From assembly GCF_018918125.1 (NCBI RefSeq), contig NZ_JAHLQA010000019.1, positions 37,038 through 101,037 of the forward strand: a stretch of 64,000 bases of DNA, read 5' to 3'. A program made the translations under genes and the position numbers. This document shows, one piece after another, positions 14,408 to 48,224 of the stretch. Numbering within the stretch: position 1 is the stretch's first letter; each line of letters opens with the position of its first letter. The notes below the pieces were generated by a model. It was not told where the DNA came from, ran no database searches, and worked only from the letters and a program-made list of their open reading frames with translations. The stretch comes from Blautia sp. MSJ-19. Lineage in GTDB: Bacteria; Bacillota; Clostridia; Lachnospirales; Lachnospiraceae.

Positions 14408-14693
14408 CATAACTATGAGTTTCATAGCAAAGGCAGAGAAAAAGAGGAGTAGGCGATATTCGCTGACAGAGAGGGGTTCTCGGAGGCTGTAAGGAACCCT
14501 CAGAAAGAGATTGTCGAAGGTAGCTTTGGAGCCGGAAAGCTGAGAAAGGACTGCGTCAGGCAGAATCAGTAAGCTTTCACGTTTCCTGCGTTAAGGGAGA
14601 ATGAGATGTGTAGTTCTATCATCTGCACAATGAAGGTGGTACCGCGATTTAATTGCCCTTCACACAGGTTCTGTGTGAGGGGCTGTTTTTTCA
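14408..14693 (+). promoter_or_regulatory. T-box riboswitch (valine) upstream of valS
   Basis: The antiterminator core GGTGGTACCGCG is at 14635-14646, preceded by AA. A terminator follows: GCCCTTCACACAG (14655-14667) pairs with CTGTGTGAGGGGC (14671-14683), then a T-run. Upstream, AGGAGTAGG, AGAGAG and GAAG-GTA-GCTTTGGAG fit Stem I landmarks. The likely specifier is the valine codon GTA at 14520-14522, agreeing with valS; GTC at 14513-14515 is a weaker alternative. Uncharged tRNA-Val would bind and prevent termination. Confidence 0.92.
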
Positions 14694-33802: not shown

Positions 33803-34026
33803 GCTGTGACATGATAGCAATGAAGCGCGAGGTTGCCGCCAGGAGATGACGGGTTTTCCGTGGAGCGAATGTCAAGTTAGGAAACTGACGACAAGTCACT
33901 GTACAAGTTCAGAAACCATCAACGGGATGGACGTGTGTAAAGAAGTCGAAAGACACACACGGAGATGTGTACAGTCGCCGCTTGTCGTACTGCATAATTG
34001 AGTACGAATAGGAGGAGACTTTTTTT
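33803..34026 (+). promoter_or_regulatory. Structured leader of the S10 operon
   Basis: About 220 nt between promoter and rpsJ. Outer arms ACGACAAG (33888-33895) and CTTGTCGT (33981-33988) enclose ACTGTACA (33898-33905) / TGTACAGT (33968-33975), which enclose two hairpins: CCATC-AACG-GGATGG (33916-33930) and GTGTGT/ACACAC (33933-33960). That is a three-way junction. A further hairpin (GTCAAGTT/AACTGAC) precedes it. Ribosomal protein autoregulation is likely but the ligand is unknown. Confidence 0.6.
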
Positions 34027-35706: not shown

Positions 35707-36005
35707 TGGCAGCTATTAAATATTATGATGTAATTCTCAAGCCTGTAATCACAGAGAAATCCATGAATGCCATGGGTGAGAAAAAATATACATTCCTGGT
35801 TCATCCGGAAGCAAACAAGTCTCAGATTAAAGAGGCTGTTGAGAAAATGTTCGAAGGAACAAAAGTTAAGAGCGTAAACACCATGAACATGGATGGAAAG
35901 AAAAAACGTCGCGGTGTTACAGTTGGTAAAACAGCTAAGACTAAAAAAGCGATCGTAGCTCTTACAGAAGAAAGCAAAGATATCGAAATCTTCGAGGGAC
36001 TTTGA
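35706..36005 (+). CDS. rplW: 50S ribosomal protein L23
   Basis: 99 residues; sits at the tunnel exit and docks SRP and trigger factor. [15 protein letters not shown] opens the protein and [11 protein letters not shown] forms the basic loop. TAATG coupling to rplD. The stop codon overlaps the first bases of an unusual hairpin repeat (36004 onward), which separates it from rplB. Confidence 0.99.
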
Positions 36006-36108
36006 TCGAAAGCAACTTAATGAATGCGAGTGAAAACGAAGCATGAATTAAGTGCGAGATCGTTCCCGAACCTTAACGAGCATATAATGCGAGTTTGGTT
36101 GAGGGAAC
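36004..36108. repeat. Paired-hairpin repeat with tandem G.A mismatches, copy A (rplW-rplB)
   Basis: Two hairpins back to back. First (36004-36061): GATC-GA outer step, then ACTTAAT-GA-ATGC pairs with GCAT-GA-ATTAAGT, closing GA-GATC. Second (36062-36108): GTTCCC-GA-ACC.. AAC-GA-GCAT-ATA-ATGC-GA-GTT.. GGT.. GA-GGGAAC. Each helix is broken by GA opposite GA. The element starts inside the rplW stop codon. Related copies lie at 40855, 41494 (inverted) and 48064. Confidence 0.8.
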
Positions 36109-36178
36109 ATTCCTCTTCACGCTTTCAGAAGATATATGCTGGAAAGCATGATAACTAATATTCGAAAGGAGAAACATC

Positions 36179-37024
36179 ATGGGAATCAAAACCTATAACC
36201 CATATACACCTTCCAGAAGACATATGACTGGATCTGATTTCTCTGAGATCACAACAAATACCCCTGAGAAATCCTTAGTCGTATCTCTGAAGAAAAATGC
36301 TGGACGTAACAACCAGGGTAAAATTACTGTTAGACACCGCGGAGGCGGAAGCAGAAGAAAATACAGAATCATCGACTTCAAGAGAAGAAAAGATGGAATC
36401 CATGCTACTGTTAAGACAATCGAATACGATCCGAACAGAACAGCAAACATCGCTCTGATCTGCTACGAAGATGGTGAAAAAGCATACATCCTTGCACCGG
36501 AAGGACTGAAAGTCGGACAGAAAGTCATGAACGGTCCGGAAGCAGAAATCCGTGTAGGAAACTGCCTGCCACTGGAACTTATCCCGGTTGGTACTATGAT
36601 CCACAACATCGAGCTGCATCCTGGAAAAGGCGGACAGATGGTTCGTTCCGCTGGTAACGGCGCACAGCTGATGGCTAAAGAAGGAAAATACGCAACATTA
36701 AGATTACCGTCAGGTGAAATGAGAATGGTTCCGCTTGTATGCCGCGCTTCTATCGGAGTTGTTGGTAACGGCGATCACAACCTTATCAATGTTGGTAAAG
36801 CTGGACGTAAACGTCATATGGGAATCAGACCTACAGTTCGTGGTTCCGTAATGAACCCGAATGACCATCCGCATGGTGGTGGTGAAGGAAAGACCGGAAT
36901 CGGTCGTCCAGGTCCGTGTACACCATGGGGCAAACCTGCTCTTGGTCTGAAGACCAGAAAGAAAAACAAACAGTCCAACAAGCTCATCGTAAGAAGACGC
37001 GATGGAAAAGCTTTATCAAAATAA
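36179..37024 (+). CDS. rplB: 50S ribosomal protein L2
   Basis: 281 residues; binds 23S rRNA domain IV and bridges to the 30S subunit. Conserved [12 protein letters not shown] near the N-terminus and [20 protein letters not shown] near the C-terminus, including the functionally important His. RBS AAAGGAG. It is preceded by 173 bp holding the hairpin repeat, an unusual gap in this cluster; rpsS follows after 15 bp. Confidence 0.99.
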
Positions 37025-37039
37025 TAAGGAGGGTACAGA

Positions 37040-37321
37040 ATGTCTCGTTCATTGAAAAAAGGACCTTTCGCAGACGCAAGCCTGCTTAAAAAGGTTGACG
37101 CTCTGAATGCTGCAAATGATAAATCTGTGATCAAAACATGGTCACGTCGTTCCACTATCTTCCCGTCCTTCGTAGGACATACAATCGCAGTACATGACGG
37201 AAGAAAACATGTTCCGGTATATGTAACAGAAGATATGGTAGGACACAAACTTGGTGAGTTCGTAGCTACAAGAACTTACAGAGGACACGGAAAAGACGAA
37301 AAGAAATCCGGCGTTCGCTAG
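37040..37321 (+). CDS. rpsS: 30S ribosomal protein S19
   Basis: 93 residues; forms a complex with S13 near the A site. Motifs [18 protein letters not shown] and the central [20 protein letters not shown] are complete. RBS AAGGAGG. A gap of about 97 bp before rplV holds a GC-rich imperfect stem (CTGCC / GGCAG). Confidence 0.99.
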
Positions 37322-37418
37322 TATTAAACTTAAATAAAATAATCTGCCTGTTGTCCCGCAAGGGGGCAGCAAGGCGGTGTTACCAGATATCGATTAATTG
37401 GAAAGGAGGCACTTTAAA

Positions 37419-37808
37419 ATGGCAAAGGGACATAGAAGCCAGATTAAGAGAGCCAGAAATGAGAGTAATAGAGAGACAAGACCGTCTGCAAAATTATCTT
37501 ATGCAAGAATTTCTGTTCAGAAAGCCTGCTATGTATTAGATGCAATCCGTGGTAAAGACGTGCAGACAGCACTTGGTATCCTCACATATAATCCGAGATA
37601 CGCTTCAAGCGTTCTGAAGAAACTGCTTGAGTCAGCAATCGCAAACGCAGAAAACAATAACGGAATGAGCGCAGATAACCTCTACGTTGCAGCGTGCTAT
37701 GCAAACAAAGGACCTACAATGAAACGTATTCAGCCAAGAGCACAGGGTAGAGCTTACAGAATCGAAAAGAGAACAAGCCATATCACCATCGTGCTGGATG
37801 AAAGATAA
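37419..37808 (+). CDS. rplV: 50S ribosomal protein L22
   Basis: 129 residues; its hairpin lines the exit tunnel beside L4. Start at 37419 because AAAGGAGG lies 9 bp upstream and the family begins [11 protein letters not shown]; a longer frame from 37398 would include the RBS. The tunnel-loop region near [18 protein letters not shown] is intact. Confidence 0.98.
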
Positions 37809-37819
37809 GGAGGAAAAGC

Positions 37820-38476
37820 ATGGGACAGAAAGTTAATCCACATGGCCTTAGAGTCGGTGTGATCAAGGATTGGGATTCCAGATGGTATGCAGAAGCAGAT
37901 TTCGCAGACTACCTGGTTGAAGATTACAATATCAGAACATTTTTAAAGAAAAAACTTTACAGCGCAGGTGTTTCCAAGATTGAAATCGAAAGAGCATCTG
38001 ACAGAGTTAAGATCATCATCTACACTGCTAAACCGGGTATCGTAATCGGTAAAGGTGGTTCTGAGATCGAAAAAGTAAAAGCTGAATTACAGAAATTCAC
38101 AGACAAAAAACTGATCGTAGATATCAAAGAAGTAAAGAGACCGGACAAAGATGCTCAGCTCGTAGCTGAAAACATTGCCCTGCAGCTTGAAAACCGTATC
38201 TCCTTCAGACGTGCTATGAAATCTACAATGCAGAGAACAATGAAAGCAGGAGCAAAAGGAATCAAAACATCCGTATCCGGACGTCTTGGTGGAGCTGATA
38301 TGGCTCGTACAGAGTTCTACAGCGAAGGAACAATCCCGCTTCAGACACTGCGTGCAGACATTGATTATGGATTTGCAGAAGCTGACACAACTTACGGAAA
38401 AGTTGGTGTAAAAGCTTGGGTATACAACGGTGAAGTACTTCCTACTAAAGGAAATAAGGAAGGGAGCGATAAATAA
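37820..38476 (+). CDS. rpsC: 30S ribosomal protein S3
   Basis: 218 residues; sits at the mRNA entry. It has the KH domain with [14 protein letters not shown] near residue 72 and the C-terminal [19 protein letters not shown] region. RBS AAGGAGG. Stop and rplP start overlap (TAATG). Confidence 0.99.
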
Positions 38477-38913
38477 TGTTAATGCCAAAAAGAGTAAAAC
38501 GTCGTAAACAGTTCCGTGGCTCCATGAGAGGTAAAGCCCTTAGAGGTAATAAGATCAACTATGGTGAATTCGGACTTGTTGCTACCGAACCTTGCTGGAT
38601 CAGATCTAACCAGATCGAAGCAGCCCGTGTTGCCATGACACGTTACATCAAACGTGGTGGTCAGGTTTGGATTAAGATTTTCCCGGATAAACCAGTAACA
38701 GCGAAACCAGCAGAAACACGTATGGGTTCCGGAAAAGGTTCCCTTGAATACTGGGTAGCAGTTGTTAAGCCAGGACGTGTAATGTTCGAAATCGCAGGCG
38801 TTTCTGAAGAGATCGCTCGTGAAGCATTACGTCTTGCAATGCACAAGTTACCATGTAAATGTAAAATCGTTTCTCGTGCAGACTTAGAAGGCGGTGATAA
38901 CAGTGAAAATTAA
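38476..38913 (+). CDS. rplP: 50S ribosomal protein L16
   Basis: 145 residues; contacts the A-site tRNA. Begins [15 protein letters not shown] and holds [20 protein letters not shown], the typical L16 core. Translation is coupled to rpsC through TAATG; the end overlaps rpmC. Confidence 0.99.
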
Positions 38914-39112
38914 TAAATTCGTAGAAGATTTAAAAGCAAAATCAGCTGCAGAATTAAATGAAGAATTAGTAGCTGCTAAAAAAGAACTTTTCAATCTGAG
39001 ATTTCAGAATGCAACCAATCAGTTAGACAATACAAGCAGAATCAAAGAGGTTCGCAAAAATATTGCCAGAATCCAGACAGTAATCACTGAGCAGGCAAAC
39101 GCTGCTAAATAG
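38903..39112 (+). CDS. rpmC: 50S ribosomal protein L29
   Basis: 69 residues; two-helix protein at the tunnel exit. GTG start at 38903, overlapping the rplP end by 11 bp, preceded by AAGGCGG; an earlier in-frame GTG at 38894 would cover that site. The core [20 protein letters not shown] is standard. Confidence 0.97.
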
Positions 39113-39134
39113 TGAATAGTAGGAGGAAATAATC

Positions 39135-39389
39135 GTGGAAAGAAATCTGAGAAAGACCCGTGTGGGTAAGGTTGTCAGCAATAAGATGGACAAGACCATT
39201 GTTGTTGCTATCGAAGACCATGTAAAACATCCTCTTTACAAAAAAATCGTAAAGAGAACATATAAACTCAAAGCTCATGATGAGAACAATGAGTGCAATA
39301 TCGGTGATACCGTTAAAGTTATGGAAACCAGACCGCTGTCCAAAGACAAGAGATGGAGACTGGTTGAGATCGTAGAGAAAGTGAAATAA
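39135..39389 (+). CDS. rpsQ: 30S ribosomal protein S17
   Basis: 84 residues, OB-fold primary binder of 16S r[23 protein letters not shown] opens it and [19 protein letters not shown] closes it. GTG start with AGGAGG upstream. Confidence 0.98.
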
Positions 39390-39402
39390 GGAGGAAACCA
39401 GT

Positions 39403-39771
39403 ATGATTCAGCAGGAAACTAGACTGAAAGTTGCCGACAACACTGGTGCAAAAGAAATCCTTTGTATTCGTGTTATGGGTGGCTCTACAAGAAGATATGC
39501 TAACATCGGTGATACTATCGTTGCTACTGTTAAAGATGCAACACCAGGCGGTGTTGTTAAAAAAGGCGATGTAGTTAAAGCTGTTGTAGTTCGTACCAAA
39601 AAAGGCGCTCGTCGTAAAGACGGATCTTACATCCGTTTCGATGAAAATGCAGCCGTAATCATTAAAGACGATTTAACTCCGAAAGGAACACGTATCTTTG
39701 GACCAGTTGCCAGAGAACTTCGTGAAAAGAAATTCATGAAGATCGTTTCCTTAGCTCCGGAAGTATTATAG
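39403..39771 (+). CDS. rplN: 50S ribosomal protein L14
   Basis: 122 residues; lies at the subunit interface, contacts L19 and is the RsfS target. [18 protein letters not shown] at the start and [20 protein letters not shown] at the end are standard. RBS AAGGAGG. Confidence 0.99.
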
Positions 39772-39782
39772 GAGGGTGCCTA

Positions 39783-40094
39783 ATGTCAGCTATGAAAATT
39801 AAAAAAGGCGACACTGTTAAAGTAATCGCTGGAAAAGATAAAGGCAAAGAAGGAAAAGTTCTTGCCGTTAACGTAAAAGACAACACCGTAATCGTTGAGA
39901 ATGTCAACATGGTTACAAAGCACAACAAACCATCAGCTGCAAACCAGGCTGGCGGAATCACAACAAAAGAAGCTGCTCTTCATGTTTCCAACGTAATGCT
40001 CGTTGTTGACGGAAAAGCTACAAGAGTTGGATTCCAGATGGATGGAGACAAAAAAGTACGTGTTGCAAAAGCAACAGGTAAAGTTATCGATTAA
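39783..40094 (+). CDS. rplX: 50S ribosomal protein L24
   Basis: 103 residues; assembly initiator. KOW motif [20 protein letters not shown] at the N-terminus, followed by [22 protein letters not shown] overlaps the rplN stop region. Confidence 0.98.
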
Positions 40095-40115
40095 TTAAGA
40101 GAGGAGGCATGACAG

Positions 40116-40655
40116 GTGAGTAGATTAAAAGAACTTTACACAAATGAGATCATGGATGCCATGACCAAAAAATTCGGATATAAAAACGTTATGGAAGTGC
40201 CAAAACTCGATAAGATCGTTATCAACATGGGTGTTGGTGAAGCTAAAGAAAACGCTAAGCTTCTTGATGCAGCAATCGCTGATATGGAACTGATCACAGG
40301 CCAGAAAGCAATCGCAACAAAAGCTAAAAAATCTGTAGCTAACTTCAAAATCAGAGAGGGTATGCCAATCGGTTGTAAGGTTACCTTAAGAGGCGAGAAG
40401 ATGTATGAATTTGCTGATCGTCTTATCAACCTTGCTCTTCCTCGTGTACGTGACTTCCGTGGTGTAAATCCGAACGCTTTCGATGGCAGAGGAAACTACG
40501 CACTGGGAATCAAAGAACAGCTGATCTTCCCAGAAGTTGAGTATGATAAGGTAGACAAAGTAAGAGGTATGGATATCATCTTCGTTACAACTGCTAAGAC
40601 AGACGAAGAGGCTCGTGAACTGTTAACTCAGTTCAATATGCCTTTTGCTAAATAA
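40116..40655 (+). CDS. rplE: 50S ribosomal protein L5
   Basis: 179 residues; binds 5S rRNA and the P-site tRNA elbow. [19 protein letters not shown] and the [20 protein letters not shown] loop are intact. GTG start at 40116 with GAGAGGAGG upstream. Confidence 0.98.
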
Positions 40656-40669
40656 GGAGGAGAATTCGA

Positions 40670-40855
40670 ATGGCTAAAACAGCAATGAAAATCAAACAGC
40701 AGCGCAAACAGAAATTCTCCACAAGAGAATACAGCCGCTGCAGAATCTGTGGACGTCCACACGCATACCTGAGAAAATACGGTATCTGCCGTATCTGCTT
40801 CCGTGAACTGGCTTACAAAGGTCAGATCCCGGGTGTTAAAAAAGCTTCCTGGTAG
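40670..40855 (+). CDS. rpsZ: 30S ribosomal protein S14, zinc-binding type
   Basis: 61 residues; short (type Z) S14 with four zinc cysteines as CRICGRP...GICRICF. It has [16 protein letters not shown] ahead of the ribbon. RBS AAGGAGGAG. The stop codon touches the first base of hairpin repeat copy B. Confidence 0.98.
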
Positions 40856-40970
40856 GCCGGAAACACTTAATGAATGCAAGCTGTTAAGCACAGCATGAAT
40901 TTAGTGTGAGGCCCTTCCCGAACCTTAACGAAACCGAGTGTAAACGAAGGTTGAGTTTAGTTGAGGGAAG
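40855..40970. repeat. Paired-hairpin repeat with tandem G.A mismatches, copy B (rpsN-rpsH)
   Basis: First hairpin (40855-40913): GGCC outer arms, ACACTTAAT-GA-ATGC pairs with GCAT-GA-ATTTAGTGT, then GA-GGCC. Second (40914-40970): CTTCCC-GA-ACC.. AAC-GA-AACC, loop, GGTT-GA-GTT.. GA-GGGAAG. Same two-hairpin layout as copy A, again starting at the stop codon of the upstream gene. Confidence 0.8.
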
Positions 40971-41048
40971 TGGTGCAAATTTGTTAAACCTAAAGTAATT
41001 ATATTAATCATGTAAAGTCTGAGAAGAGAATAATAGGAGGAAACTAAC

Positions 41049-41450
41049 ATGACAATGAGTGATCCAATCGCAGATATGCTTACAAGAATCCGTAACGCTA
41101 ACACTGCAAAACATGATACAGTAGATGTTCCGGCATCCAAAATGAAAATCGCAATCGCAAACATCCTTGTAGATGAAGGATATATTGCAAAATACGATCT
41201 GATCGAAGACGGCGTATTCAAAACCATCCATATCACACTGAAATACGGTGAGACAAAGAACGACAAGATCATCACAGGACTTAAGAGAATCTCCAAACCA
41301 GGTCTTCGTATCTACGCTGGTAAAGATGAACTCCCGAGAGTACTTGGCGGACTTGGAATCGCAATCCTTTCCACAAACAAAGGTGTAATCACTGACAAAG
41401 AAGCTCGTAAACTTCAGGTTGGTGGAGAAGTTCTTGCTTTCGTTTGGTAA
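41049..41450 (+). CDS. rpsH: 30S ribosomal protein S8
   Basis: 133 residues; primary 16S binder and, in E. coli, repressor of the spc operon. [20 protein letters not shown] at the start and [16 protein letters not shown] near the end are conserved. RBS AGGAGG. It is followed at once by a terminator-like hairpin and then by inverted repeat copy D. Confidence 0.99.
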
Positions 41451-41456
41451 TAAGGA

Positions 41457-41480
41457 AAAAAATCTGAATGCAGATTTTTT
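41457..41480 (+). terminator. Terminator-like hairpin after rpsH, inside the spc operon
   Basis: AAAAAATCTG (41457-41466) pairs perfectly with CAGATTTTTT (41471-41480) around AATG, starting 7 bp after the rpsH stop. The stem is AT-rich, so termination would be partial. Confidence 0.55.
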
Positions 41481-41493
41481 ATAGATGAAGGAA

Positions 41494-41607
41494 ACACCAT
41501 CGTCACTAAATTCGATAGCCGACGCGTTGCATCGACTCTCTCATTAAGTGTCGAGGTGTGCTTTCTCACTAAACTCGTACAGCGTTTGCGCCTGTACTTG
41601 TTAAGTG
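41494..41607. repeat. Paired-hairpin repeat, copy D, inverted orientation (rpsH-rplF)
   Basis: Read on the minus strand this gives CACTTAAT-GA ... GA-ATTTAGTG (41504-41550, inside ACACC/GGTGT arms at 41494-41559) and CACTTAAC-AA-GTACAG ... CTGTAC-GA-GTTTAGTG (41567-41607). On the plus strand the mismatches become TC/TC. So the same family as copies A-C is present in reverse. Confidence 0.75.
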
Positions 41608-41679
41608 TTCAATGCAAACTGAAAACAGAGAGAAATGAAAGCTTTTCTCTCCGACAATTTAAGTAAGGAGGACAATATT

Positions 41680-42219
41680 ATGTCACGAATCGGAAGACTT
41701 CCGGTAGCTATTCCGGCAGGCGTTGAAGTAAGCGTAGCTGCAGGTAACGTAGTAACCGTTAAAGGTCCTAAAGGAACACTCGAAAGAGCACTTCCAACCG
41801 AAATGGAAATCAAAGTAGAAGATGGTCATGTAGTAGTTACAAGACCGAACGATCTTAAGAAAATGAAAGCATTACACGGTCTGACAAGAAGCCTTATCCA
41901 CAACATGGTTGTTGGTGTAAGCGAAGGCTACACAAAAGAGCTTGAAGTCAACGGTGTAGGTTATAGAGCACAGAAACAGGGCAAGAAACTTGTTCTTTCT
42001 CTGGGATATTCTCACCCGGTAGAGATGGAAGATCCAGAAGGTCTGGAATCCAAAGTTGATGGAAACAAGATCATCGTTTCCGGTATCAGCAAAGAAAAAG
42101 TTGGCCAGTACGCAGCAGAGATCAGAGATAAGAGAAGACCGGAGCCATATAAGGGCAAAGGTATCAAGTATGCTGATGAAGTTATCAGACGTAAAGTCGG
42201 TAAGACTGGTAAGAAATAA
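41680..42219 (+). CDS. rplF: 50S ribosomal protein L6
   Basis: 179 residues; near the sarcin-ricin loop. Begins [16 protein letters not shown] and ends [21 protein letters not shown], the L6 signature. ATG 41680 has AAGGAGG upstream; the frame extends 45 bp earlier without support. Preceded by a 229-bp gap containing a hairpin and repeat D. Confidence 0.98.
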
Positions 42220-42236
42220 ATAAGGAGAGTGAGAAT

Positions 42237-42605
42237 ATGATTAATAAAGCATCCAGAGCGGAAATTCGCGAGAAAAAACATAGAAGAATCCGTCATCATC
42301 TCAATGGAACAGCTACTACTCCTAGACTGGCAGTATATCGTTCCAACAAGCATATGTATGCACAGATCATTGATGACACTGTAGGAAAAACTTTAGTATC
42401 TGCTTCTACTCTTCAGAAAGATGTAAAAGCTGAACTGGAAAATACTGATGATGTAAAAGCTGCAGCATACCTTGGAACTGTAATCGGAAAGAAAGCAGTT
42501 GAAGCAGGTATCGAGAGCGTTGTCTTCGACAGAGGAGGCTATATCTATCACGGTAAAGTAAAGGCACTGGCAGACGCAGCAAGAGAAGCTGGGCTGAAAT
42601 TCTAA
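42237..42605 (+). CDS. rplR: 50S ribosomal protein L18
   Basis: 122 residues; binds 5S r[21 protein letters not shown] and the C-terminal [20 protein letters not shown] are typical. RBS AAGGAG, 17 bp after rplF. Confidence 0.98.
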
Positions 42606-42623
42606 AAGGGAGGAAAAAGACAC

Positions 42624-43133
42624 ATGAAAAATAATCTTATTGATGCTAGTCAGTTAGAATTAGAAGATAAAGTAGTGTCAATCAAACGTGTTACCAAGGT
42701 TGTTAAAGGTGGCCGTAACTTCCGTTTCACAGCTTTGGTTGTTGTAGGTGACGGCAACGGACATGTTGGTGCAGGTTTAGGAAAGGCAGCTGAAATTCCG
42801 GAAGCTATCCGCAAAGGAAAAGAAGATGCCATGAAAAAACTGGTTACAGTTGCAAGAGATGAGAACAATTCCATCACTCATGACTATGTAGGAAAATTCG
42901 GAAGTGCTGAAATGCTTCTGAAACGTGCTCCGGAAGGTACTGGAGTTATCGCTGGTGGTCCAGCGCGTGCAGTCATCGAACTTGCAGGTATCAAAAACAT
43001 CCGTACAAAATGTATGGGATCCAGAAATAAACAGAACGTAGTTCTGGCTACTATTGAAGGATTAAGCAAACTGAAAACTCCGGAAGAAGTTGCAAAACTT
43101 CGCGGAAAATCTGTAGAAGAGATTCTGGCATAA
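42624..43133 (+). CDS. rpsE: 30S ribosomal protein S5
   Basis: 169 residues; double-stranded RNA-binding fold involved in decoding accuracy. [18 protein letters not shown] and the [19 protein letters not shown] motif are intact; the spectinomycin loop region shows nothing odd. RBS AGGGAGG. Confidence 0.99.
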
Positions 43134-43146
43134 GGAGGACAAAACA

Positions 43147-43329
43147 ATGGCAAACACATTAAAAGTTACACTTGTTAAGTCTCCAATCGGTGCAGTTCCG
43201 AAACACAAAAAGACTGTAGCTGCTATGGGACTTACAAAAATGCATAAGACAGTTGAAATGCCTGACAATGCTGCTACAAGAGGAATGATCCAGCAGGTTC
43301 AGCATCTTGTAAAAGTAGAAGAAGCATAA
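43147..43329 (+). CDS. rpmD: 50S ribosomal protein L30
   Basis: 60 residues, complete. KVTLVKSPIGAVPKHKKT and the MGLTKMHKTVEMPDN core identify it. RBS AAGGAGG, between rpsE and rplO as usual. Confidence 0.98.
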   Translation: MANTLKVTLVKSPIGAVPKHKKTVAAMGLTKMHKTVEMPDNAATRGMIQQVQHLVKVEEA

Positions 43330-43368
43330 TAATTTCCAGAGATTGAATAATAAAAGGAGGTGCCAAAG

Positions 43369-43809
43369 ATGGAATTATCAAACTTAAGACCAGCAGAAGG
43401 TTCTAAACACAGTGATAACTTCAGAAGAGGCCGTGGACATGGTTCCGGAAACGGCAAAACAGCCGGAAAAGGACACAAAGGACAGTTAGCTCGTTCCGGA
43501 CACAAAAAACCGGGATTTGAAGGTGGACAGATGCCTTTATACAGACGTCTTCCTAAGAGAGGCTTCAAGAACAGAAATTCTAAAGAGATCATCGCAATCA
43601 ATGTTGACGTTCTGAATCGTTTTGAAGACGGAGCAGAAGTTACAGTTGAATCTTTACTTGCTACCAGCGCAATCTCCAAAGCTGGAGACGGTGTTAAGAT
43701 TCTTGGAAACGGTGAACTGACCAAAAAACTTAATGTAAAAGTAAATGCTGTCAGCGAAACCGCTAAAGCAAAAATCGAAGCTGCAGGTGGTACAGTAGAG
43801 GTGATCTAA
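43369..43809 (+). CDS. rplO: 50S ribosomal protein L15
   Basis: 146 residues; late-assembly protein. Gly/Arg-rich N-terminal part [19 protein letters not shown] and [21 protein letters not shown] 43369 follows AGGAGG; a GTG at 43360 overlaps it. The stop overlaps the secY start (TAATG). Confidence 0.98.
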
Positions 43810-45125
43810 TGTTTGAGACTCTTAAAGGTGTTTTTAGAGTGAAAGAGATGCGGCGTAAGCTTCTCTACCTGTTAGCGATGATTTTTGTCATCCGTATAGG
43901 TTCACAGCTGCCGATACCTGGTGTGGATGGCAGTGTGTTCAAACAGTGGTTCAAGAGCAATACCGGTGATGCATTCAATTTCTTTGATGCATTCACCGGT
44001 GGTTCCTTTGAGAGCATGTCTGTTTTTGCATTGAATATCACACCGTACATTACATCTTCCATTATCATTCAGCTTCTGACGATTGCAATTCCTGCTCTGG
44101 AGGAAATGCACAGAGATGGTGAAGAGGGAAGAAAAAAGATGACTGCAATTACCCGTTATGTCACAGTAGGTCTGGCTCTTTTTGAGTCAGTTGCGATGAC
44201 GATCGGTTTTGCCCGTGGAAATATCGTTAAAGATATGGACCTCTTAAAAGGCATTGTTGTAGTTGTCAGCCTTACAGCCGGTTCTGCAATGTTGATGTGG
44301 ATCGGTGAGCGTATCACAGAAAAGGGAGTTGGAAATGGTATTTCTATCGTACTTGCAGTAAATATCGTGTCCAGAATTCCAAGTGATATGACAACTCTTT
44401 ATGAGAACTTTATTAAGGGAAAAACAATCGCAAAGGGAATGCTTGCAGGTGTGATCATCTTCGCGATCATTATGGTTGTGGTTGTATTTGTCCTTATTCT
44501 TAATGGAGCAGAAAGAAGGATTCCTGTTCAGTACTCCAGAAAGATGGTTGGAAGAAAAATGATGGGCGGTCAGGCCACAAACATTCCGTTAAAGGTCAAC
44601 ACTGCCGGTGTTATCCCGATCATCTTCGCTTCTTCCATTATGTCTTTCCCGGGTGTTATTGCCCAGTTTGCCGGTAAGGCAAATGGTACAGGCATTGGAA
44701 GTGAGATCCTGAGAGGTCTTTCATCAAGTAACTGGTGTAATCCATCCCAGCCGCAGTATAGCTGGGGATTGCTGTTATACGTAGTTCTCTGCGTATTCTT
44801 TGCATATTTCTATACTTCCATCACATTTAATCCGCTGGAAGTTGCAGATAATATCAAAAAGCAGGGTGGTTTTATCCCAGGCATCCGTCCAGGAAAACCT
44901 ACATCAGATTATTTGACTAAAATGCTTAATTATATTATATTTATAGGTGCGGTAGGCCTGATCATTGTGGCAGTAATTCCGTTCTTCTTCAATGGTGTAT
45001 TCGGAGCACATGTTTCTTTCGGTGGTACATCTATCATCATCGTAGTTGGTGTTGTTCTTGAAACATTGAAGCAGATCGAGTCTCAGTTGCTTGTCCGCAA
45101 TTACAAAGGCTTTCTGAACAGCTAA
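43809..45125 (+). CDS. secY: Protein translocase subunit SecY
   Basis: 438 residues with ten membrane helices; forms the SecYEG channel. Plug/helix 2 region YITSSIIIQLLTIAIP, helix-7 to -8 sequence NTAGVIPIIFASSIM, and the cytoplasmic loop GGFIPGIRPGKPTSDYL that binds SecA and ribosomes. Coupled to rplO. A hairpin follows before adk. Confidence 0.99.
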   Translation: MFETLKGVFRVKEMRRKLLYLLAMIFVIRIGSQLPIPGVDGSVFKQWFKSNTGDAFNFFDAFTGGSFESMSVFALNITPYITSSIIIQLLTIAIPALEEMHRDGEEGRKKMTAITRYVTVGLALFESVAMTIGFARGNIVKDMDLLKGIVVVVSLTAGSAMLMWIGERITEKGVGNGISIVLAVNIVSRIPSDMTTLYENFIKGKTIAKGMLAGVIIFAIIMVVVVFVLILNGAERRIPVQYSRKMVGRKMMGGQATNIPLKVNTAGVIPIIFASSIMSFPGVIAQFAGKANGTGIGSEILRGLSSSNWCNPSQPQYSWGLLLYVVLCVFFAYFYTSITFNPLEVADNIKKQGGFIPGIRPGKPTSDYLTKMLNYIIFIGAVGLIIVAVIPFFFNGVFGAHVSFGGTSIIIVVGVVLETLKQIESQLLVRNYKGFLNS

Positions 45126-45131
45126 AATGAA

Positions 45132-45165
45132 GGCTGTGGTGTGAAAGCATCACAGTCTTTTGTTT
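45132..45165 (+). terminator. Hairpin between secY and adk
   Basis: GGCTGTGGTG pairs with CATCACAGTC around TGAAAG (three G-U or weak pairs), followed by TTTTGTTTT. Likely a partial terminator or processing site inside the operon. Confidence 0.55.
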
Positions 45166-45245
45166 TATAGGGATTCCCTGTAAAGCAGAAACGCTCCGCG
45201 AGGATGTTGTTTTAAGCTTCATAAAGAAAAAGGAGGGTATTTATT

Positions 45246-45890
45246 ATGCGTATTATTATGTTGGGTGCACCAGGAGCAGGAAAAGGAACTCAGGCAAAAA
45301 AAATTGCCGAGAAATATGGTATTCCGCATATTTCTACAGGAGATATTTTCCGTGCAAACATCAAAAATGGTACTGAATTGGGGAAAAAAGCAAAAACATA
45401 TATGGACCAGGGGCTTTTGGTACCAGATGAATTAACCTGTGATCTTGTAGTAGACAGAATTCAGCAGGATGATGCAAAGAACGGTTATGTACTGGATGGT
45501 TTCCCAAGAACGATCCCGCAGGCAGAATGCCTGACAGCGGCTCTTGAAAAACTGGGAAGCAAGATTGATTATGCGATCGATGTAGACGTACCGGATGAGA
45601 ATATTGTAAATCGTATGTCCGGCAGAAGAGCCTGCCTGAAATGCGGAGCAACTTATCACATCGTATATGCTGCACCGAAGACAGAGAATGTCTGCGATAC
45701 CTGTGGGGAGAACCTTGTACTCCGCGATGATGACAAACCGGAAACAGTTTCCAAACGTCTGAAGGTTTATCATGAACAGACACAGCCGCTGATCGACTAT
45801 TACACCAAACAGGGCGTTTTAAAGACTGTAGACGGAACTGTTGCACTGGATGAGGTATTCCAGGCAATCGTCGAAATCTTGGGAGAATAA
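45246..45890 (+). CDS. adk: Adenylate kinase, zinc-containing
   Basis: 214 residues; ATP + AMP = 2 ADP. P-loop [13 protein letters not shown] at residue 7, LID with four cysteines (CLKCGATYH ... CDTCGENL), the zinc-bearing form common in Gram-positives, and [11 protein letters not shown] in the AMP site. RBS AAGGAGG. map follows after 5 bp. Confidence 0.99.
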
Positions 45891-45895
45891 TAAAG

Positions 45896-46651
45896 ATGTC
45901 AGTTTCTATTAAGTCAGAACATGAAATTGAGCTTATGAGACATGCCGGTCATTTACTGGAACAGGTTCACGATGAACTGGCTTCTCACATTAAGCCGGGA
46001 ATCAGCACAAAAGAACTGGATCGCATTGGTGAGGACATGATCCGTTCCATGGGTTGTATTCCGAACTTTAAGAATTATCAGGGCTTTCCTGCATCATTCT
46101 GTATCAGCCTGAATGATGAAGTTGTACATGGGATCCCGTCCAGACATAAGATCATCCAGGAAGGCGATCTTGTCAAGATCGATGCCGGACTGATCTACAA
46201 GGGATATCATTCCGATGCTGCGCGTACGTATGCGGTCGGTGAAGTATCTCCAGAAGCAAAACAGCTTATGGAAGTTACCAAACAGAGTTTCTTTGAAGGA
46301 ATCAAATATGCAAAAGCAGGAAATCATCTGAATGATATTTCCAAGGCAATCGGTGCGTATGCTGCAAAGTTTAACTATGGTATCGTTCGTGACCTGGTAG
46401 GTCACGGAATCGGAACACACCTCCATGAGGATCCGCAGATACCGAATTTCCCGCAGAAACGCAGAGGCATTAAACTGATGCCTGGTATGACATTTGCAAT
46501 CGAACCAATGATTAATCTGGGACGCGCAGACGTTGCGTGGGAAGATGATGAGTGGACGGTTGTAACGATGGACGGCTCTCTTTCTGCACATTATGAAAAC
46601 ACCATTCTGATCACGGATGGAGAACCGGAAATTCTGACTCTTACAAAATGA
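45896..46651 (+). CDS. map: Methionine aminopeptidase, type I
   Basis: 251 residues; removes the initiator Met. Metal ligands are visible in KIDAGLIYKGYHSDAARTYA (two Asp), GHGIGTHLHEDP (His), FAIEPMI (Glu) and HYENTILIT (Glu). ATG lies 5 bp after adk, with a poor RBS (ATAATAAAG), so coupling is likely. Confidence 0.98.
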   Translation: MSVSIKSEHEIELMRHAGHLLEQVHDELASHIKPGISTKELDRIGEDMIRSMGCIPNFKNYQGFPASFCISLNDEVVHGIPSRHKIIQEGDLVKIDAGLIYKGYHSDAARTYAVGEVSPEAKQLMEVTKQSFFEGIKYAKAGNHLNDISKAIGAYAAKFNYGIVRDLVGHGIGTHLHEDPQIPNFPQKRRGIKLMPGMTFAIEPMINLGRADVAWEDDEWTVVTMDGSLSAHYENTILITDGEPEILTLTK

Positions 46652-46673
46652 CAGATGACATAGGAGGTTTATA

Positions 46674-46892
46674 ATGTCTAAAGCAGATGTAATCGAAGTG
46701 GAAGGTACTGTATTGGAGAAGCTGCCTAATGCGATGTTCAAAGTAGAACTGGAAAACAAGCATGTAGTGCTGGCACATATCAGCGGAAAGCTGCGTATGA
46801 ACTTTATCCGTATTCTTCCTGGAGACAAAGTTACAATTGAACTTTCTCCATACGATCTTTCCAAAGGACGTATTATTTGGCGAGATAAATAA
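46674..46892 (+). CDS. infA: Translation initiation factor IF-1
   Basis: 72 residues, OB-fold. Sequence [20 protein letters not shown] and [14 protein letters not shown] are the standard ends. RBS AGGAGG. No KOW-domain gene lies between map and infA, as occurs in some Clostridia. Two strong hairpins follow. Confidence 0.99.
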
Positions 46893-46896
46893 AAAC

Positions 46897-46986
46897 GTGA
46901 GGGGGACTCGCTCACAGTTGCGAAGGCCGCTGTCCCCCTCACACTCCCCCTGTGGGCCACGCTGGTGCTGCGGGGGGAGTTTTTTG
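46897..46986 (+). terminator. Tandem hairpins and terminator after infA
   Basis: GTGAGGGGGAC (46897-46907) pairs with GTCCCCCTCAC (46932-46942). Directly after, ACTCCCCC (46943-46950) pairs with GGGGGAGT (46973-46980), then T6. The two share C-runs that could pair with either G-run, so they might switch. They divide the supercluster into two transcription units. Confidence 0.8.
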
Positions 46987-47171
46987 TTATTAGAATATGT
47001 AAGTTAACCCAATAAGATCCTTGAACGAGAATGATTTACATATTTTGATATGCACAGCTACGAGAAAGAAGAGAACAGAAATCGCAGTGTGTCAGGAACT
47101 CCTTCTTTCTTATCTACGTAGCGTAAATATTTTATAGACAAAAAAATTAACAAAAATTTAAAATTAGGGCT

Positions 47172-47200
47172 TGCATAATTTGCAACAAGGTGTTAATATA
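47172..47200 (+). promoter_or_regulatory. Promoter of the rpmJ-alpha operon
   Basis: TTGCAT, 17-bp spacer, TAATAT. It repeats the CTTGCATAATTT of the S10 promoter. The 380-bp gap before rpmJ also has inverted repeats AATATGTAA/TTACATATT (46994-47044) and GCTACG-AGAAAGAAG with its near-complement (47057-47122). Confidence 0.65.
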
Positions 47201-47273
47201 TCATATGTACGCGCTGAGAGTGCGTGTATGAACTGCAGATTCAAGCCTATATTACGGAAAAGGAGGATTTCCA

Positions 47274-47387
47274 GTGAAAGTAAGATCATCTGTAAAGCCG
47301 ATCTGCGAAAAATGCAAGATCATCAAAAGAAAAGGATCTATCAGAGTAATCTGTGAAAATCCAAAACACAAACAGCGTCAGGGTTGA
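47274..47387 (+). CDS. rpmJ: 50S ribosomal protein L36
   Basis: 37 residues, GTG start at 47274 after AAAAGGAGG. Sequence starts [20 protein letters not shown]; zinc ligands are CEKC, a later Cys in VICENP and His in KHKQ (the C+ form). Position after infA is standard. A structured gap of 301 bp follows. Confidence 0.97.
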
Positions 47388-47688
47388 TTGACTGATTTGT
47401 GAAACGTGCGGCTGCAGTTTGATACACCCGGAAGGGTTGTTCGGACTGTTTTAATATCTTATTAAAGAAGCATGTATTGCCTAATACCGAGAGGCAACAA
47501 GATGTCCGAGAGGACACAATTTCGGAAAGGTCGCTTTACGCCAAAGGCGACTGGGTGTTTTACCGAGGCACCCCAATTAGGAAACTAGAAAATCAGAAAG
47601 CTTAGGAAAATATACCCCATTTCACCTTGCAAGATCGCAAGTGGTATAGTTCTGAAGACTTTCAAAAAGAAAATGGAGGAAACAGTAC
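47388..47688 (+). promoter_or_regulatory. Structured leader before rpsM: array of hairpins
   Basis: No ORF. Successive hairpins: TTGCCT/AGGCAA (47477-47497), TGTCC-GAGA-GGACA (47503-47516), GTCGCTTT/AAAGGCGAC (47530-47551), GGGTG/CACCC (47553-47573), then CACCTTGC/GCAAGTG near 47622-47643. In B. subtilis the S13-S4 region and rpsD are under S4 control; this may be a similar protein-binding leader, but the ligand is not shown. Confidence 0.55.
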
Positions 47689-48057
47689 ATGGCTCGTATA
47701 GCTGGTGTAGACTTACCAAGAGACAAACGTATCGAAATCGGCCTTACCTATATCTATGGTATCGGCAGAACAAGCGCTGACAAAATTCTTGCTCAGGCAG
47801 GTGTAAATCCTGACATTCGTGTTAGAGACCTGACAGACGATGATGTAAAGAAAATCAGTGCTGTAATTGATGAAACAATGACAGTTGAAGGTGATCTTCG
47901 TCGTGAAATCGCTCTGAATATCAAGAGACTGCAGGAAATCGGATGCTACAGAGGTATCCGTCATCGTAAAGGACTTCCGGTTCGTGGCCAGAAGACCAAG
48001 ACAAACGCTAGAACACGCAAAGGTCCTAAGAGAACCGTTGCAAACAAGAAGAAATAA
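47689..48057 (+). CDS. rpsM: 30S ribosomal protein S13
   Basis: 122 residues; contacts the P-site tRNA and bridges to L5. [20 protein letters not shown] at the start, [20 protein letters not shown] at the end. RBS TGGAGG. Followed by hairpin repeat copy C. Confidence 0.99.
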
Positions 48058-48063
48058 TGAACG

Positions 48064-48168
48064 CTTAACGAATGCAAATGTAAATGCAGCATGAGTTTAG
48101 TGTGAATATTGTTCGAAGGAACTTAATGAAGACAAGCGTAAGCGCAGACTGAATTTAGTGAATCGAAC
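48064..48168. repeat. Paired-hairpin repeat with tandem G.A mismatches, copy C (rpsM-rpsK)
   Basis: First hairpin (48064-48100): CTTAAC-GA-ATGC pairs with GCAT-GA-GTTTAG. Second (48111-48168): GTTCGA outer arm, ACTTAAT-GA-AG ... CT-GA-ATTTAGT, closing TCGAAC. The outer arms are weaker than in copies A and B. Confidence 0.75.
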
Positions 48169-48224
48169 TTCCTTACGAAACGAAATAATTGATTATATAA
48201 AGGAAAGTGTAGGTTAGTTTTAAA

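Follow-up and report, generated by a model that had tools for sequence, protein, structure and literature searches.

Paired hairpins between ribosomal protein genes of Blautia are copies of a large dispersed Lachnospiraceae family with maintained pairing

A stretch of 64,000 nucleotides (nt) of the Blautia sp. MSJ-19 genome (contig NZ_JAHLQA010000019.1, positions 37,038 to 101,037), called the window here and used for all element coordinates, carries two tandem hairpins of about 45-60 nt each in four gaps of its ribosomal protein operons. The genes bordering the gaps, as named by NCBIfam, encode L23-L2 (rplW-rplB, element E1), S14-S8 (rpsN-rpsH, E2), S8-L6 (rpsH-rplF, E3) and S13-S11 (rpsM-rpsK, E4). 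The four elements are copies of a large dispersed family of paired hairpins in the Lachnospiraceae, and pairing is strongly maintained across that family. An earlier note, written from the letters of this stretch without database searches, had reported four gaps with two adjacent hairpins each and had taken them for a family; direct reading and folds confirmed the first point, and searches of this genome and of other Lachnospiraceae, which found many copies, bore out the second. NCBIfam naming covered seven genes of the window and eight other bordering genes, with no match for a gene in locus L062; the remaining gene names were given by eye.

The size of the family was seen first in the genome itself. 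A two-arm pattern gave 11 matches in 3.57 Mb and 0 when read backwards, and short half-patterns with one mismatch allowed showed no excess within the window. The covariance model R1, for which 14 of the genome's 16 observed hairpins were used, matched 14 hairpins there at E values of 1.3e-11 to 1.0e-7, as six pairs and two singles; counting two weaker partners (E 0.19 and E 0.00056), eight paired elements were recognised by reading. Those beyond the window stood between the genes for a sodium-translocating decarboxylase beta subunit and a carboxylase-like protein, between grpE and dnaK and, in two cases, in leaders ahead of 16S rRNA genes; at locus L006 the core ended about 95 nt upstream of the 16S start placed by Rfam. 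In other genomes R1 found matches in 24 of 36 Blautia, in at least 132 of 396 Lachnospiraceae genomes and at least 109 of 307 genera (lower bounds, since 16 candidates were scored per genome), in 1 of 24 genomes from other families of the order and in 6 of 398 genomes sampled across the phylum, three of these six being outside the family. The paired pattern occurred in 47 stretches, including Clostridium symbiosum, Anaerostipes, Mobilisporobacter, Faecalicatena and Scybalocola; one of the 47, in coding repeats of Nitrosopumilus, looks like chance. A known RNA family was rejected because Rfam had no match to the hairpins above gathering score: 13 loci searched at E values up to 5 returned rRNA, tRNA and six matches to unrelated families below that score. 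Our literature searches of open-licence papers found no published description of the hairpins.

On its own strand the core reads N-N-CTTAAY-GA-N4-RA-NN-(GNRA-like)-NN-GMA-N4'-GA-RTTTAG-N-N, with a T.T mismatch in the stem. The consensus of the earlier note, YACTTAAY-GA-N4...N4'-GA-RTTTAGTR, was right in that the motif recurs; the actual consensus is looser, E3 carries it on the minus strand, and that note had missed both the T.T mismatch and the apical RA/GMA loop beneath the GNRA-like loop. Arms read CCTTAAC in E1B and E2B; they begin with A in E1A and E4B and with CG in E4A. E3A has AA/GA in place of GA/GA, E1B nearly lacks the apical part, the inner stem of E3B is longer and imperfect, and that of E4B has one mismatch. 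Across the family the tandem G.A pairs, which form a symmetric 2x2 loop, were nearly invariant (G.A in 133 of 140 cells, A.G in 138 of 140), as was the U.U mismatch (135 of 140). The R.M positions of the apical internal loop covaried, with A.C in 61 and G.A in 49 of 127 cells and a mutual information of 0.70 against a permutation maximum of 0.10; A.C and G.A pairs can share one geometry. Mismatches were G.T in 51 cases and A.C in 22, an excess that fits one strand being read, as RNA or as single-stranded DNA.

The proposal that the inner N4 covaries, and hence that selection acts on pairing, was supported in three sets of hairpins. The 14 hairpins of the genome itself showed two-sided change in 8 of 13 pairs. 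The second set, 141 distinct hairpins of which a single one is not from Blautia, had 93.6% of its cells paired; two-sided change was seen in 337 cells as opposed to 91 in shuffles, and the covariation score was 0.476 versus 0.179 for shuffled and at most 0.087 for slid alignments. One inner pair took all four Watson-Crick types in this set (UA 52, CG 35, GC 25, AU 23, with UG 4 and 2 unpaired). Since alignment A4 was fitted to the model, the count was redone on A5, a MAFFT alignment of 21 distinct A-hairpins from the single orthologous gap rpsH-rplF in several genera, including the decayed hairpin of L190. There 94.7% of cells were paired (at most 36.6% in slid controls), and 37 cells showed two-sided change against 11.8 in shuffles, with none of 500 shuffles as high. 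Neither outcome that the earlier note had named as fatal to its proposal, an absence of further copies or of excess compensatory change, was thus observed.

The hairpins of the window are listed in the table below. Folds of the elements gave z-scores of -8.2 for E1, -5.6 for E2 and -5.3 for the minus strand of E3, with an equal or better fold in 0 of 200 shuffles each. The outer stem of E1 hairpin A, GATC/GATC, begins within the rplW stop codon TGA (36003-36005), and that of E2 hairpin A, GGCC/GGCC, on the final base of the rpsN stop codon TAG; by eye, the outer A/T stem of E4 hairpin A takes in the rpsM stop codon TAA (48055-48057). E1 hairpin B is laid out as TTCCC-GA-ACCTTAAC-GA-GCAT ... 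ATGC-GA-GTTTGGTT-GA-GGGAA and E4 hairpin B as GTTCG-AAGGA-ACTTAAT ... ATTTAGTGAAT-CGAAC. A pseudoknot between the AAGGA of hairpin B and a TTCCTT just downstream was considered and dropped, as many B hairpins lack one side and a linker is absent. By reading, no T run of four or more directly follows any of the four elements and genes of the same operon come next, so that they do not have the form of an intrinsic terminator, a G+C-rich hairpin and then a T run. Beside E3, an A/T-rich hairpin (AAAAATCTGAATGCAGATTTTTT, 41450-41500) directly after the rpsH stop codon resembles a weak intra-operon terminator. Rfam matched in the window only the S10-Clostridia (33812-33894) and S4-Clostridia (47525-47581) ribosomal protein leaders and a T-box leader (14427-14663), none overlapping the elements; the operons bear these ordinary leaders in addition to the hairpins.

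Table. Hairpins of the four elements in the 64,000-nt window, with the evidence for each
Feature	Position	Strand	Evidence
E1 hairpin A	36004..36061	+	sequence, fold; R1 match 36014-36054, 61.6 bits
E1 hairpin B, short apex	36062..36108	+	fold; weak R1 match, 19.1 bits, E 0.19
E2 hairpin A	40855..40913	+	sequence, fold; R1 match 40864-40906, 55.9 bits
E2 hairpin B	40914..40970	+	sequence, fold; R1 match 40922-40962, 59.2 bits
E3 hairpin A core, rpsH-rplF gap, antisense to operon	41567..41607	-	R1 match 51.3 bits; minus-strand fold
E3 hairpin B, longer inner stem, antisense to operon	41495..41559	-	R1 match 41504-41550, 29.2 bits; fold
E4 hairpin A	48055..48109	+	sequence; R1 match 48062-48102, 59.4 bits
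E4 hairpin B	48110..48169	+	sequence; R1 match 48120-48160, 61.0 bits

The arrangement of the hairpins was regular. A same-strand neighbour lay within 70 nt of 100 of the 150 matches, most often 58 nt apart, and none of the 150 had an opposite-strand neighbour within 150 nt; hairpin A is followed in direct tandem by hairpin B after about 58 nt. The short outer stem of hairpin A overlaps or adjoins the stop codon (GACC/GGTC, GGCC/GGCC, GATC/GATC, AAGT/ACTT and others). Both neighbouring genes were in the sense orientation in 44 of 87 rows and both antisense in 2, where one row is not from Blautia, 17 are without a downstream gene call and one two-element locus supplies four of the 44. Divergent gaps outnumbered convergent ones by 9 to 1, and a sense stop codon stood at most 15 nt upstream in 28 of the 87 rows, the mirror case occurring once. 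A second type of element begins 3-5 nt after a TATAAT box, a predicted promoter: of 88 clusters, 21 had TATAAT or TATACT no more than 16 nt ahead of their first core, as did 1 of 88 mirror controls. For these copies, of which one is at the NCBIfam-named rpsA, the -35 match was 3.43 of 6 compared with 2.45 in shifted controls. The earlier note had placed the elements between ribosomal protein genes, where they do occur, yet they are not confined to them and also follow pgk, grpE, an oadB-like gene, tuf and rpoA. Sites that recurred were rpsH-rplF, rpsN-rpsH, rplW-rplB, rpsM-rpsK, pgk-tpiA, grpE-dnaK, the oadB-like gene, tuf, rpoA-rplQ, a fructose-6-phosphate aldolase/transaldolase gene and rRNA leaders.

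Several variants of this arrangement were seen. Tandem hairpin arrays were present at L073, L078, L103-L105, L107, L109 and L241, several with TATAAT recurring between units, which suggests that a gene may have several promoter-plus-hairpin starts. Larger elements containing the same core were seen at L092-L099 and L132 (genome G025), L125 (G010), L100-L102, L130 and L131 (G032), L212, L222, L231, and L244, L248 and L255 (G813). By eye these have long, locus-specific, self-complementary outer stems, a recurring mini-hairpin like AGCGAGAGCG and, at some loci, T-rich tails; some genomes hold several copies, and they also occur outside the Lachnospiraceae. G039, a genome of the order but not of the Lachnospiraceae, has a 16S rRNA gene (Rfam match 1408-1691) whose 3' portion contains such a hairpin (GA/GA, T.T, RA/GAA; L129, 1513-1576), apparently as an extension to the tip of helix 44. 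In the 16S leaders L115 (G024) and L128 (G022) the hairpin B outer stem GGTTCG/CGAAC seems, by eye, to be kept while the apex is replaced by unrelated sequence, and the outer and apical parts of the hairpins may be exchangeable.

The structural constraint, the sense bias and the positions at transcript landmarks together point to a role in RNA, and RNA rather than DNA appears to be the selected molecule. The reading that we tentatively favour, at somewhat less than an even chance, is that the hairpin pairs, once transcribed, form a structured barrier protecting or insulating cistrons, and that they also spread as a repeat. Decay running 3'-to-5' would be kept out of the upstream cistron, and the 5' end of the downstream one would be structured. 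Closure of the outer stem in or beside the stop codon could leave no RNA exposed between the terminating ribosome and the hairpin that takes over from it. Endonucleolytic cleavage of the RNase Y type takes place in Firmicutes; such a cut in the gap might be followed by the halting of exonucleases at the hairpins. Like the stem-loops of selective RNA processing, E1, E2 and E4 each sit at the 3' end of an intra-operon cistron.

Several observations weigh against this proposal of an mRNA barrier. The fold of E4 beats its shuffles just modestly (z -2.3, 2 of 200 as good or better). E3 (41485-41612) has its motif antisense to the operon, and the mRNA there would form hairpins that lack the G.A/U.U motif (z -4.3); by eye, antisense copies are also found in other genomes, within regions of rRNA and tRNA genes (L057, L088, L147, L163). 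Simple protection explains neither the fixity of the non-canonical pairs nor the copies in rRNA leaders and terminator-like stems. No R1 match was found in 12 of the 36 other Blautia genomes, including two with completeness ratings of 99 and 100%, and most species are without the element at the four sites discussed below; no single copy is therefore needed. Two of the five covariation measures were weaker: the pair-type count was reached by 366 of 500 shuffles for the 14 own hairpins and by 341 of 500 for A5, and the two-sided pair count was equalled by 50 of 500 for the 141 hairpins and by 18 of 500 for A5. The sequences are moreover related, so that the counts are not independent. Outer stems scored 4.76 with their own partners and 4.12 (standard deviation 0.10) with swapped ones in 60 hairpins, but the best stem anywhere in 16 nt was taken.

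The main rival to mRNA protection is a miniature mobile DNA element of the REP/BIME/BOX kind without host function, whose folding serves transposition as single-stranded DNA and which persists where insertion is harmless, after stops and in leaders. We regard this as possible with a clear minority of the probability. In its favour, congeners differ at one and the same site in having or lacking a unit of about 110-130 nt, and remnants of it were seen. Among 30 Blautia loci compared at each of four sites, a sense element adjoining the stop was found in 5 at rpsN-rpsH (one a single hairpin), 6 at rpsH-rplF, 3 at rpsM-rpsK and 6 at pgk-tpiA; the remaining loci had compact gaps or remnants, for example the 5' half of hairpin A, and one site can be filled, decayed or empty among species. 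The pgk-tpiA gap of the MSJ-19 genome itself (L306) is occupied by another, long hairpin in the place that the element takes in some other species of the genus. In 44 chosen elements likeness was 0.777 at the same locus in other genomes, 0.713 at other loci of the same genome (reached by 2 of 1000 shuffles) and 0.682 otherwise. Likeness by locus and by genome both exceed the background, so that neither purely vertical inheritance nor purely free mobility fits, and the values suggest that copies are mostly inherited in place and spread to some extent within a genome. The excess likeness within genomes, the antisense insertion E3 and the tandem arrays agree with a mobile DNA repeat. The sense bias, the positions adjoining stops and TATAAT, the greater likeness by locus than by genome and the 21 distinct, still paired variants in one orthologous gap do not.

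A search for a mobilising enzyme also spoke against such a repeat. The Y1 transposase PF01797, sought in 16 genomes, was absent from G020 and G029 (8 hairpin matches each), was present only as broken fragments in G025, G028 and G035 (13, 23 and 9 hairpin matches) and as an open copy in G024 (15), and had three matches each in G001 and G016, both without hairpin matches. The MSJ-19 genome has two copies, IS200/IS605-like by eye, and the genome-wide search gave no R1 match in their flanks. Across the 16 genomes the presence of PF01797 was thus unrelated to hairpin copy number, and the REPIN/RAYT system was rejected. Phage and plasmid records, against each of which one element was queried, gave no match, nor did viral contigs searched with a paired pattern. 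The arms resemble those of integron attC sites (RYYYAAC/GTTRRRY); no cassette context was seen, and this candidate was set aside on inspection. The dispersed element is probably mobile; no transposase for it was found. A further reading, which we hold to be unlikely, is a mobile RNA module with its own partner: a motif spread through the Lachnospiraceae and wired onto promoter-proximal 5' ends, stop codons, rRNA leaders and terminators, which would let one RNA-binding protein or RNase tune the whole set of translation and energy genes.

The closeness of the hairpins to stop codons raises a translational role, in which a hairpin beginning within the stop codon would prevent read-through, delay recycling or uncouple the next cistron's re-initiation. 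The outer stem takes in letters of the stop codon, and at the four sites TAA was the stop in 4 of 20 filled and 74 of 100 unfilled loci, leaving TAG or TGA in 16 of 20 and 26 of 100 (Fisher 8.8e-6), where the filled count includes L202 (E 1.2) and the unfilled count includes rpsM matches away from the stop (L287, L294) and L190 at rpsH, which has a decayed hairpin and no R1 match. Absence of TAA from filled sites held as a rule at rpsN and rpsH and nearly at pgk (TAA in 1 of 6), and the rule was broken at rpsM, where all 3 filled stop-adjoining loci retain TAA. The TATAAT-type, rRNA-leader and spacer copies are without a stop codon, and the relation could stem from inherited insertions, the loci being related by descent; we judge this role quite improbable.

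Nor do we give much credence to processive antitermination, for which the put RNA of phage HK022 is the model and in which the paired hairpins would attach to RNA polymerase during elongation and sustain transcription through long or untranslated operons. Positions right after TATAAT boxes, in a 16S rRNA leader and repeatedly in long ribosomal operons would suit it, as would two tandem hairpins with fixed non-canonical pairs. Copies were also seen, by eye, after apparent last operon genes and in terminator-like stems, where antitermination makes little sense, and occurrence at each site is patchy; a search of open-licence papers found no put/LoaP precedents. Ribosomal autoregulation through kink-turns bound by L7Ae-family proteins (YbxF/YlxQ), motifs to which the earlier note had likened the stacked G.A pairs, is very improbable, since the tandem G.A pairs, presumably sheared, recur in nearly all aligned copies within a symmetric 2x2 loop with no three-nucleotide bulge, the outer loop of the GAAA/GA subtype (by eye) likewise misfits such a bulge plus G.A pairs, and the majority of copies were seen outside ribosomal protein genes.

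Lachnospiraceae are among the main human gut bacteria. If the barrier reading is true, an overlooked layer of post-transcriptional control would lie where ribosomal, chaperone and glycolysis genes have their stop codons, in the at least 109 genera with matches; the alternative meaning would be a new type of small mobile element favouring transcript ends. The strict motif, with its G.A, U.U and R.M pairs, offers a direct handle for testing an effect on mRNA.

The hairpins may be set beside several known systems. The kink-turn shares with them tandem G.A and A.G pairs in RNA; its definition includes the three-nucleotide bulge that the hairpins lack (PMC5061560). The ANTAR antiterminator also has two small adjacent hairpins with conserved residues, but these residues are in the terminal loops and the targets described concern nitrogen management (PMC3369931), whereas the Lachnospiraceae hairpins have fixed internal loops and a variable terminal loop. 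REP/BIME sequences, and REPINs with RAYT transposases, are likewise imperfect palindromes of small size, dispersed between genes and frequently forming doublets or clusters; REP doublets are inverted (PMC3116915), unlike the direct tandem copies described here, which have no copy-number relation to Y1 transposases and a strong sense bias. Small interspersed repeats also occur in the Gram-positive genome of Streptococcus pneumoniae, as the BOX and RUP families (PMC3049150). For the proposed barrier the closest counterpart with experimental tests behind it is selective RNA processing and stabilisation in Clostridium, which also involves stem-loops at cistron 3' ends within operons (PMC4423207, PMC8219983). 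In Clostridium cellulolyticum transcript ratios vary with the folding energy of stem-loops found at the 3' ends of strongly transcribed genes, and the stem-loops drawn include those of rpsP and dnaK (PMC4423207); operons predicted to be processed include ribosomal protein and ATP synthase operons (PMC8219983), so that ribosomal, ATP synthase and dnaK genes are among those of the Clostridium system. That system comes with processing data and the hairpins described here are known from sequence. The Clostridium stem-loops were compared by folding energy, whereas the Lachnospiraceae hairpins are one conserved sequence-structure motif placed at many unrelated genes.

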